This document shows, piece by piece, positions 1 to 42,252 of a DNA stretch of 64,000 nucleotides (the stretch's first letter is position 1; each line of letters opens with the position of its first letter). The translations under genes and the position numbers were made by a program. The notes under the pieces were generated by a model. It ran no database searches. It was not told the DNA's origin and was given only the letters and a program-made list of their open reading frames with translations. Source of the DNA: Domibacillus indicus (lineage in GTDB: Bacteria > Bacillota > Bacilli > Bacillales > Domibacillaceae); the NCBI RefSeq assembly GCF_023715895.1, contig NZ_JAMBOO010000007.1, positions 1-64,000 of the forward strand. Reading direction: 5' to 3'.

Positions 1-410
<410 letters not shown>

Positions 411-552
411 AGTGTTTGACTTGCTCATTTGTTTCCATTGAAACACGGGGTGTTTTAATGGAAGATAAAAATTTAAAACGTTGACGTTTTTATTGATTTT
501 GTTCAGTTTTCAATGTTCAATGTTTATTACTGTCGTTCGTGACAGCTAAATA

Positions 553-10389: not shown

Positions 10390-10664
10390 AGCTGCATATG
10401 CACCGATAAGTTCAGAAACTGTGGTTAACCAAGTCCCCCTTCAATTATGAAGGTCTTTTAAAAGCATGTTTAAAATGAAAGCTGGAACCAAAAAATGCAT
10501 GCTTTGGTTCCTGCTTTATTCAATGTCTTTGATTTTCAATTGGCACCTTATAGGCTTTTGAAAAAAATTTTTGCCGGTTCAGGGTTCGACAAAATCTTTT
10601 CCAATCTTTTGTTACAATGTGAAATCAAGGATAAAAAAGTCATATTATCCAAAAAAAACAAAAA

Positions 10665-10757
10665 AGGAACAAAAGGTAAACTAGCCGAAAGGCTGGGACA
10701 CAAAGCTACAGATCTAAGGTTCTTTTTATAAGAAGACTATGATGGCTGAGCTGCTTC
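10665..10757 (+). ncRNA. probable cyclic-di-GMP-I (GEMM-I) riboswitch
   Basis: The segment GGTAAACTAGCCGAAAGG / CTGGGACACAAAGCTACAG / ATCTAAGG matches the conserved core of class I c-di-GMP riboswitches: GGNAAACC, a stem capped by a GAAA tetraloop, GGGACGCAAAGC, then CCUAA. A variable P3 stem (TTCTTTTTATAAGAA) and a 3' ATGATGGCTGAGCTGC piece resembling the tetraloop-receptor strand follow. The closing P1 pairing is weaker than in the Vc2 example, which lowers confidence. A TACAAT -10-like box lies at 10613-10618. The aptamer ends about 5 bp before the AGGAGGG ribosome binding site of the SinI-like gene, so control is likely translational; I see no terminator between. Confidence 0.65.
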
Positions 10758-10775
10758 GTCACAGGAGGGTATTCA

Positions 10776-10928
10776 ATGCTGGATCAAGATCTTGATCAGG
10801 AGATTGTAGAAGAAGTATTGGACACTGAGTGGATAGCACTAATGAAAGCTGCAAAAAGCCTCGGTCTGTCAATTGAAGAAATTAGAGAATTTTTAGCTGC
10901 CAATAAAGTACAAAACTCTGCTTCATAA
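10776..10928 (+). CDS. SinI-like antirepressor, 50 residues
   Basis: A small gene with a strong AGGAGGG (10764-10770) 5 nt before ATG. The product is acidic at the N-terminus, then reads LDTEWIALMKAAKSLGLSIE followed by EIREFLAANK. This matches the SinI dimerisation domain (in B. subtilis SinI: LDQEWVALMVEAKEANISPEEIRKYL). SinI titrates the biofilm repressor SinR by forming a heterodimer. No sinR or other HTH partner is adjacent, so the target may be encoded elsewhere. It sits directly under the GEMM-like leader, which would make its translation respond to c-di-GMP. Confidence 0.8.
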   Translation: MLDQDLDQEIVEEVLDTEWIALMKAAKSLGLSIEEIREFLAANKVQNSAS

Positions 10929-10976
10929 TAGTGAAAGCAGAGCGGCTTACCTTTTCGGCTTGAGCCAGCTTTGATG

Positions 10977-11014
10977 TAAGCTCTTGTCCTGACTGTCTGT
11001 AAGACAGGAGCTTA
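10977..11014 (+). terminator. hairpin after the SinI-like gene
   Basis: TAAGCTC/GAGCTTA outer arms with CTGTC/GACAG inside; only a weak T-rich tail (TCCCCTCTTTGTTCTT) follows. A terminator is plausible but not strong. Confidence 0.45.
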
Positions 11015-11059
11015 TCCCCTCTTTGTTCTTAAATCACCCGACTGCTCTTATGTCTATGC

Positions 11060-28947: not shown

Positions 28948-30520
28948 GGTATGAAATAGTCGCTCGGTTTCTTCCTTCAGATTTTGATTGATATAAAGCT
29001 TGATCTGCGAGTTGAAATAACTCTGCCAAAGAAGCAGACTGTAATGGAAATTCAGCAATACCAAGTGAAATGGTGACAGGCCGGCCACCTGCTTTGATTT
29101 TATTTTCTACAGCGATTCTTACTTTTTCTGCAATACTGTAGGCTTCCAGTCCAGTAGTGTCAGGAAGCAGCATAATAAACTCTTCTCCCCCATAACGAAA
29201 GCAAATATCCGTTTTTCTGACGATCGATTGGATCGTAGAAACAAGCTGTTTTAATGTTTCATCGCCCATTTGATGACCGTATGTATCATTAATCTGCTTG
29301 AAATGGTCGATGTCTATGATTACAAGGGAAAATCGTCGGTTCTGTGCTGCCCAGCTTTCCATTCTTTCATCCAGCTCTCTGCGATTGGGAATGCCGGTAA
29401 GCGGATCCGTTATCGCTGCGTGGGTGAGCTTCTGATTATTTTCTTTTACCGCTCTGATCGCAATCGCCACACTCTTGGTTAGAAGGTCCGCTTCCCGATT
29501 CCAGTGGGGCCGCTCATCCGGAACTGGCACTGCTTTTCCGGATGCAAGCCGATTCATCAAATCAGCTAAATGCATAAAAGGAGCCGCCAGCTTTCGGGCG
29601 ATCAGTATCGATAACGCTAACAAAAGAAGAAATGGCGGAAGAATACGCAGCACCAGTTTCTCAATATGATTTTGTAGAACATCCTTCATGGATGAAACTG
29701 GAGTCTGCTGTACAACACCCCAGCCGATTTCTGGAATGGCACTGTAAGCAGCAAGCATGGGTATGCCTGCTTTATTTGTTACTTGTTCGGCTCCGCTTTT
29801 TCCCTGCATTAGTTTACGAACAACTGTATTTGCATTACCGTCTTCTCCAATGCGGCCTTGATCAGGGTGAAACAAAAGGGTGCCGTCTGGACCGACCACA
29901 TAATAATACGAACCGTTTTCTTCAGTTGCATCGTTCCCTAATATTTCATTTAAAACGTTTTCTTCTTGAAGATAGATGCTGCCGCCGATCATCCCTCTAT
30001 ACGTGCCATTTTTATCGTAAAGCGGCTGGCTCATTGAAACGAGCAGCCGGCCTGAAGGCCCGATATAAGGTGCTGTAAGGGCAGGCTTCTTCGTATCAAG
30101 AACCTTTTTGGTTTCTCCTGTTGTAATCACTTGCCCTTTTAATCCTGTACTTAACGGCGCGATATTCCGCATAAGGCCTGTTTCATCTACCCAGGAAAGC
30201 GAGTTAAAATAGCGGCTGCTGTTTCGCAAAAGTTCTAACTGTTCCTGAATTTCTTCATCGCTTAATGTATCCTTCTCTTGAAGAAATTCGGCGGTATCCT
30301 CAAGGCTTAATCTCATCGAATGAAACAGTGAACCAACAGATTGACTGATTTTGCTGGATTTAGAGTAATTGAGGGAAAGGTACGTACGCGTAAGAGAATC
30401 TTTTTCCGACTGGTAAGATGAAACTACCATAATCAATACAGTTAAAATAACTGAGGCACAGACAAGACTGGTTAACAGGGTGGCTAAACTTACCTTACGA
30501 GTAGTAAACAATTGCTTCAT
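28931..30520 (-). CDS. membrane-bound diguanylate cyclase (dCache-GGDEF)
   Basis: 529 residues: transmembrane helix about 12-36, an extracytoplasmic sensor domain of dCache type (about 40-280; SWVDETGLMRNIAPL, YIGPSGRLLVSMSQPLYD), a second helix about 290-308, a short HAMP-like linker, and a GGDEF domain (about 365-525). The active-site loop is RYGGEEF, so catalysis is expected, and an RxxD inhibitory site (RKTD) lies five residues before it. It makes cyclic-di-GMP from two GTP. RBS AAGGAG before ATG. Monocistronic. The other c-di-GMP-related features of the window are the GEMM-like leader at 10665 and the EAL scrap at 970. Confidence 0.92.
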   Translation of the reverse strand: MKQLFTTRKVSLATLLTSLVCASVILTVLIMVVSSYQSEKDSLTRTYLSLNYSKSSKISQSVGSLFHSMRLSLEDTAEFLQEKDTLSDEEIQEQLELLRNSSRYFNSLSWVDETGLMRNIAPLSTGLKGQVITTGETKKVLDTKKPALTAPYIGPSGRLLVSMSQPLYDKNGTYRGMIGGSIYLQEENVLNEILGNDATEENGSYYYVVGPDGTLLFHPDQGRIGEDGNANTVVRKLMQGKSGAEQVTNKAGIPMLAAYSAIPEIGWGVVQQTPVSSMKDVLQNHIEKLVLRILPPFLLLLALSILIARKLAAPFMHLADLMNRLASGKAVPVPDERPHWNREADLLTKSVAIAIRAVKENNQKLTHAAITDPLTGIPNRRELDERMESWAAQNRRFSLVIIDIDHFKQINDTYGHQMGDETLKQLVSTIQSIVRKTDICFRYGGEEFIMLLPDTTGLEAYSIAEKVRIAVENKIKAGGRPVTISLGIAEFPLQSASLAELFQLADQALYQSKSEGRNRATISYQKVEG

Positions 30521-42027: not shown

Positions 42028-42252
42028 TTACAGCTTCGAGTTGTCCCCATAAAAGAATACTTCTTCCAGCGGTAAGTTAAAGGCGCGAGCAATGCGAAAA
42101 GCCAGTTCCAAAGATGGGGAGTAATTTCCCTTCTCAAGAGCTACGATAGTCTGTCTTGTTACGCCTGCCTTGTCAGCCAGTTGCTGCTGGGTCATTTCAT
42201 TATGGTTGAATCGTAATTTTCGAATGTGATTGCCGACAAGATGTTTGCCCAT
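42028..42252 (-). CDS. XRE-family (Cro/CI-type) regulator, 74 residues
   Basis: A single HTH_3 domain: IRKLRFNHNEMTQQQLADKA, then GVTRQTIVALEKGNYSPSLE and LAFRIARAFNLPLEEVFFY. The size equals the YozG/YgzD-type stand-alone regulators often found beside a small membrane protein gene. The upstream gene ends 1 bp before, so they are co-transcribed; it probably binds the palindromes at 42725-42759. Confidence 0.9.
   Translation of the reverse strand: MGKHLVGNHIRKLRFNHNEMTQQQLADKAGVTRQTIVALEKGNYSPSLELAFRIARAFNLPLEEVFFYGDNSKL

Follow-up and report, generated by a model that had tools for sequence, protein, structure and literature searches.

Features of the locus

A gene of 50 codons plus a stop codon, beginning with ATG, occupies positions 10776..10928 on the plus strand of the window (the whole 64-kb stretch of DNA that was analysed). 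It was annotated as encoding a SinI-family antirepressor, since its 50-aa single-domain product was matched by Pfam SinI (PF08671) over residues 15-40 at 45.7 bits, against a cutoff of 31.4. Immediately upstream, a c-di-GMP-I (GEMM-I) riboswitch aptamer was placed at 10666..10759 (+). The parent model c-di-GMP-I (RF01051), which an earlier note made from the sequence alone had named as the check on the GEMM-I-like aptamer that it described, matched 10665-10758 at 69.5 bits (gathering cutoff 35). The c-di-GMP-I-GGC model (RF03167) matched 10666-10759 (+) at 65.3 bits (cutoff 59, E 3.6e-13; cmscan with the gathering threshold). The start codon follows the aptamer after a 16-nt gap containing the Shine-Dalgarno (SD) sequence AGGAGG (10763..10768, +), with 7 nt between SD and start codon. 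The aptamer, now over cutoff in two Rfam models, the SinI domain of the 50-codon gene and the direct adjacency of the two were all borne out.

Compared with the nearest relative found (L059), the aptamer was 100%, the flanks 90-93% and the ORF 97% identical. Among 34 aligned aptamers of the class, changes on both sides were seen in 13 of the 14 predicted P2 and P3 pairs; P1 was not predicted in that alignment, and in the window it comprises only about 3 bp (by eye). Passages of PMC9049102 and PMC11218506 describe G20, A47 and C92 of Vc2 as ligand contacts, with A47 stacking between the two ligand guanines. All three bases are present in the window aptamer: G20 corresponds to G at 10675 (+; G in 85/86 aligned aptamers), A47 to A at 10702 (+; A in 86/86) and C92 to C at 10754 (C in 80/86). 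U22-A45 stands in place of C22-G45, so that pairing is kept. A c-di-GMP-I riboswitch very probably controls this SinI-like gene.

A long hairpin 3' of the gene (10976..11015), which lacks a T run, is a weak candidate for the end of a one-gene transcript in the predicted fold. The terminator scan called no terminator after the SinI gene, this hairpin included.

The SinI-type protein and its candidate partners

The product fell short of the cutoff of the NCBIfam SinI equivalog NF046031 (35.1 of 80 bits) and appears, from its sequence, to be SinI-like without being certified as the same protein as that equivalog. It also showed a weak match to the C-terminal part of SlrR (23.9 of 250 bits). A phmmer search against solved structures returned the SinI chains 1b0n_B (E 2.6e-4) and 5tmx_A (E 2.9e-4). 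The entry listed at the top of that search, the repeat protein 8vd6_A, was discarded because its score was the sum of five weak stretches. Core residues of the SinR hook are listed in a part of PMC3163267, and those mapped by eye onto the window protein are W19, L22, M23, A26, K27, L31, I36, F39 and L40. A lysine at the K27 position is also found in the solved SinI chain (phmmer alignments, by eye). The closest named relatives of the locus are from Domibacillus, the best with 96% protein identity, which makes Domibacillus the probable genus.

The earlier note had remarked that no SinR gene is adjacent, and this held for the whole 64 kb. A tblastn search of the window with both SinR proteins of the genome found no sinR; the best match was the SinI domain itself, followed by an HTH stretch (42055-42237) with 26% identity. 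Both sinR genes lie on another contig, and each encodes a protein whose SinI-type hook scores above the Pfam cutoff (61 and 46.4 bits). One of these sinR genes is faced by a decayed aptamer (C107:28400; L020 4401-4571; 31.3 bits by model R1) with a truncated sinI. At the same place in a relative (G008), a 67.4-bit aptamer and a sinI face a sinR with 93% identity. In the window's genome, then, the sinI with a riboswitch next to sinR has decayed, which would leave the window copy as the intact riboswitch-controlled sinI. A third, weaker SinI-like ORF without an aptamer lies near sinR (L020 3881-4066; 20-21 bits, below cutoff).

From these comparisons the window protein would probably act on SinR. 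SinR binding could have changed, because this copy of sinI does not lie beside sinR, and the alternative is a real riboswitch in front of a protein that no longer antagonises SinR, having either another HTH target (for example, an SlrR-like one) or the status of a duplicate on its way out. The failure to find sinR in the window, the unreached NF046031 cutoff together with the weak SlrR match, and the further SinI-like ORF near sinR all speak for such a loss. Against it stand the retained hook residues, the 97% identity of the ORF to that of the relative, the SinI-type hooks of both SinR proteins and the relic state of the aptamer copy beside sinR, which leaves the window copy intact. On this balance the loss of SinR action is considered unlikely, at roughly one chance in four, and action on SinR is kept as the preferred reading.

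Probable expression platform and polarity

SinI leaders carrying an aptamer (81) were reduced to 51 representatives by dropping near-duplicates, and start codons and SD sequences were assigned by our own scoring rule; three Sda leaders were left out of the SD-pairing analysis. The distance from aptamer end to start codon was 15-38 nt (median 26) in the 81 leaders, and for this reason control is most likely exerted at translation. Pairing between C92 and the SD was predicted with P > 0.5 in 40 of the 51 representatives. The SD was mostly paired in 34/51 leaders when the aptamer 3' strand was free and in 7/51 when this strand was withheld (p 6e-9). Linkers were also shuffled, because GCC pairs with AGG by nature. 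For linkers of at least 10 nt, 20 of 33 leaders scored better than 95% of their shuffled versions (p 8.8e-7), with a median z of -2.9. For linkers shorter than 10 nt, the window included, 0/18 did so at the 5% level (p 0.18), a comparison with little power since there are few bases to shuffle. A tail-swap test across 27 leaders gave p 0.011 and 0.022. In L150 and L104 the strand started by C92 forms a hairpin of 13 or 10 bp that takes in the start of the SD. The model predictions give good support to an ON switch of translation where the linker measures 10 nt or more.

In the window, the linker from aptamer to SD is about 3-4 nt. CUUC at the aptamer 3' end, starting from C92 (10754..10757, +), can form either the 3' side of P1 or an alternative anti-SD, and in the predicted ligand-free fold it pairs with GGAG at 10764-10767. 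This alternative pairing is of 4 bp; the corresponding 32-nt fold was no better than shuffled sequence (z -0.05), and a window SD hairpin was accordingly dropped as a demonstrated feature. The tail-swap test also failed for the window leader, in which 22 of 26 foreign tails paired as well as its own. The polarity of the window switch is taken from its relatives, because its own 4-bp pairing does not exceed shuffled sequence, and by analogy with them an ON switch would be the likely state of affairs.

The opposite polarity is rather improbable. An OFF switch would have the compact, ligand-bound aptamer, ending 3 nt before the SD, block the ribosome, such that c-di-GMP lowers SinI. This would suit the very short linker of the window and the lack of a significant SD hairpin in the short-linker class (0/18). 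The predicted ligand-free MFE fold of the window, with P1 open and the SD paired, argues against it, as do the SD hairpins of the long-linker class, which use C92 and exceed shuffles. High c-di-GMP usually favours biofilm, and this also fits ON control of SinI, the polarity that is retained below.

Ligand class of the aptamer

Aptamers of the c-di-GMP-I class are able to change ligand, and of the models in the clan it was the GGC variant whose match cmscan retained. In the RF03167 alignment the GGC consensus GACGCGAAGC has G at the position of A47, where the window reads GACACAAAGC, with A; the label 'GGC' presumably refers to this replacement of A47 by G. The aptamer was filed under RF01051 because its base at the A47 position is A, where that consensus has G. 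The reading as a GGC variant with a special ligand was rejected on the same ground, A47 being kept although the RF03167 cutoff was passed (65.3 against 59 bits). From its sequence the window aptamer looks like the ordinary c-di-GMP-I type.

The genome holds 20 aptamers over the RF01051 cutoff, and 28 GGDEF matches are listed for it; the messenger is therefore very likely made in this organism. One such gene lies in the window (28964..29416, minus strand; PF00990, 156.1 bits), encoding a GGDEF domain with a GGEEF motif and RxxD, a diguanylate cyclase that is a possible source of ligand without being specific to the locus. The earlier note had pointed to a diguanylate cyclase in the same window. 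The gene is there as described, but with 28 GGDEF matches on the list for the genome its presence means little, and it was rejected as evidence for the wiring. An aptamer for another cyclic dinucleotide (e.g. cAMP-GMP), or a degenerate one, is very improbable: the ligand change known for the class and the GGC match favour it, but the canonical G20, A47 and C92, the missing GGC-consensus G at A47, the kept U22-A45 pair and the 28 listed GGDEF matches argue against it.

Recurrence of the aptamer-sinI pairing

The order was surveyed by a Pfam SinI search in 120 genomes, of which 85 had a match. The sample comprised 57 single-domain loci from 52 genomes among the matches listed, with open frames up to 95 aa and the genome of the window left out, and aptamers were searched with model R1 within 250 nt upstream of the SinI domain. 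L155 (weak, 35.0 bits) and L196 (52.2 bits) were counted as aptamers. Among the matches listed, an aptamer was found directly upstream in 35/57 single-domain SinI loci, corresponding to 35/52 genomes; these 52 genomes fall into 29 family groups, of which 23 showed the pairing. When these same listed matches were sorted by the position of sinR, an aptamer was present in 13/19 loci with sinR downstream on the same strand, 11/14 with sinR on the opposite strand within 600 nt, 2/10 with sinR elsewhere in 5 kb and 9/14 with no sinR in 5 kb. It follows from these counts that the RNA goes with sinI, ordinary sinI-sinR loci included, and not with stray copies only.

A search of other genomes with the window protein gave a same-strand aptamer over the Rfam cutoff directly upstream in 17/29 loci. 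A search with an alignment of aptamer-linked SinI proteins gave an aptamer in 38 of 46 named loci, which is not an unbiased rate because the query was made from aptamer-linked proteins; some of these 46 are the same places as loci of the 29-locus set. The survey figure of 35/57 is the fairer frequency. On these sequence comparisons, direct RNA wiring of c-di-GMP to a biofilm switch seems to be widespread among the related species.

That the aptamer came to lie next to a small ORF by accident, for which the 20 aptamers in the genome might be cited, has a negligible probability and was refuted by the survey, the same order recurring in 35/57 SinI loci and 23/29 family groups among the matches listed. 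The recurrence supports the interpretation of riboswitch, SinI domain and adjacency given in the earlier note, and the finding is broader than its author thought.

At L194 and L175, two same-strand c-di-GMP-I aptamers are separated by about 700 nt, each before a short ORF that passes the SinI motif test; these are perhaps two riboswitch-sinI units in tandem.

Putative promoter and Spo0A boxes

A -10-like hexamer, TACAAT, lies at 10613..10618 (+) and was identified by eye as part of a putative sigma-A promoter; it was not listed by the promoter consensus scan. The same place in relatives reads TACAAT (L059, L062), TATAAT (L061), TACACT (L060) and TATACT (L033), also by eye. An exact Spo0A (0A) box, TTCGACA, is present at 10585..10591, 21 nt before this hexamer, and is the reverse complement of the consensus TGTCGAA given in a passage of PMC10134886. 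It is one of three exact 0A boxes in the whole 64 kb.

For the box count, 90 leaders were reduced to 62 by dropping near-duplicates and 150 nt upstream was examined in each. Exact 0A boxes occurred in 18/62 leaders, compared with a mean of 1.12 and a maximum of 5 in 500 rounds of dinucleotide shuffling, and with 1.5 expected from the box density in the same loci. The 19 boxes in the 62 leaders were located 57-124 nt before the aptamer. SinI loci without an aptamer had an exact box in 2/22 cases, a count made on a somewhat different stretch. Among the other aptamers of the genome, 4/19 were preceded by an exact box (L009, L010, L016 and L019; boxes 21-63 nt upstream), and 0A boxes are thus not special to sinI.

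Transcription of B. subtilis sinI is under Spo0A control according to a part of PMC3163267, and a part of PMC7643835 reports repression of the C. difficile sin locus by Spo0A. Because of the latter, the sign of Spo0A control at the present leaders is a matter of inference. The sequence suggests that these leaders receive two inputs, Spo0A and c-di-GMP.

Proposed mechanism and relation to known systems

The textbook example of the SinI/SinR switch is that of B. subtilis, in which a protein of the SinI kind lifts a brake on biofilm genes. The aptamer, the SinI domain, their adjacency and wide recurrence, the conserved contact bases and the enrichment of 0A boxes were observed here, and the whole explanation that is favoured as probable would join them through ligand binding, ON polarity, activation by Spo0A and action on SinR, the four steps that we infer. 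When ligand is absent, the aptamer 3' end (C92 and the following bases) would pair with the SD and keep the gene off. When c-di-GMP is bound, C92 would be engaged with the ligand and the 3' strand would go into P1, so that the SD is freed and SinI is made. SinI would then pair with the C-terminal hook of a SinR encoded elsewhere in the genome, and repression of matrix genes would be relieved. Spo0A~P, acting at the 0A box of the promoter, probably drives transcription, in which case the gene would need two inputs.

A wider proposal, put forward tentatively and at slightly less than even chances, is that sinI acts as a gate with two inputs in a large part of the order, its transcription being set by Spo0A~P and its translation by c-di-GMP through a riboswitch in which the contact base C92 also serves as anti-SD. 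The gate would be common and possibly ancestral, and B. subtilis would represent a branch in which the RNA input was lost. In Domibacillus, Sda would also be controlled by c-di-GMP through a second riboswitch, one signal favouring matrix and delaying spores.

The earlier note had remarked that the SinI/SinR switch of B. subtilis is not known to be wired to c-di-GMP by RNA. Such wiring is hardly described, but a (c-di-GMP)-sinI arrangement was already predicted for Bacillus methanolicus MGA3 (BMMGA3_08510), where PMC4342826 gives it a single sentence and a row in a table. This is the same predicted pairing as in the window. The entry, in the portion of PMC4342826 that holds it, comes without mechanism, distribution or follow-up, whereas the order-wide recurrence, the expression platform and the 0A boxes are added here. 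Among open-licence papers, as far as their retrieved passages go, no further published mention of an aptamer-sinI pairing was found beyond that of B. methanolicus (PMC4342826). Unpublished array data mentioned in a passage of PMC7793685 have sinI up when a cyclase is overexpressed in B. thuringiensis 407.

Positive control by c-di-GMP-I riboswitches is exemplified by Vc1 of Vibrio cholerae (in a part of PMC4744006) and Bc2 of B. thuringiensis (in a part of PMC11218506). The window aptamer resembles these in its architecture, in the G20, A47 and C92 contacts and in the positive control proposed here. It differs from them in its target, a SinI-type antirepressor, in the short leaders (15-38 nt from aptamer to start codon) and in the proposed masking of the SD by the C92 strand. 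As in the B. subtilis SinI/SinR system described in parts of PMC3163267, there is a SinI hook domain, SinR genes are present and sinI transcription would be controlled by Spo0A; unlike in B. subtilis, where sinI and sinR are adjacent, the window sinI copy stands alone. Riboswitch and protein both belong to classes already described; new to us are how widely the wiring is distributed and the two roles of C92 at sinI, as contact base and as part of the anti-SD.

A covariance-model search for c-di-GMP-I had matches in 0 of 14 known control genomes, B. subtilis being named among these. A riboswitch on about six in ten surveyed sinI loci (35/57, among the matches listed) would link c-di-GMP directly to the biofilm decision and would suggest that B. 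subtilis, where that search found no such RNA, is atypical in this respect.

Other aptamer-led genes and the window edge

Several other genes outside the window follow c-di-GMP-I aptamers. Three proteins that look alike by eye (107-111 aa) are each encoded behind such an aptamer (L010, L016 and L022; C169, C97 and C98), and the one that was scanned had no Pfam match at E 0.01. Two ORFs of about 50 codons, also alike by eye, lie right behind aptamers (L013 and L021; C114:578 and C44:2958); the scanned one likewise had no Pfam match at E 0.01. In two places a GGDEF gene comes after a c-di-GMP-I aptamer (L014 on C122 and L022:7795-7879 on C98), a possible feedback on ligand synthesis. A c-di-GMP-I aptamer stands directly before a gene for the sporulation inhibitor Sda (PF08970; L015/L108/L207, G000:C11:53282-53561). 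This aptamer-Sda pairing was found in five genomes labelled as the same genus (L207-L210 and L221) and in 0 of the other 25 fetched loci. At the edge of the window itself lies the 5' end of a 16S rRNA gene (1-411, minus strand).
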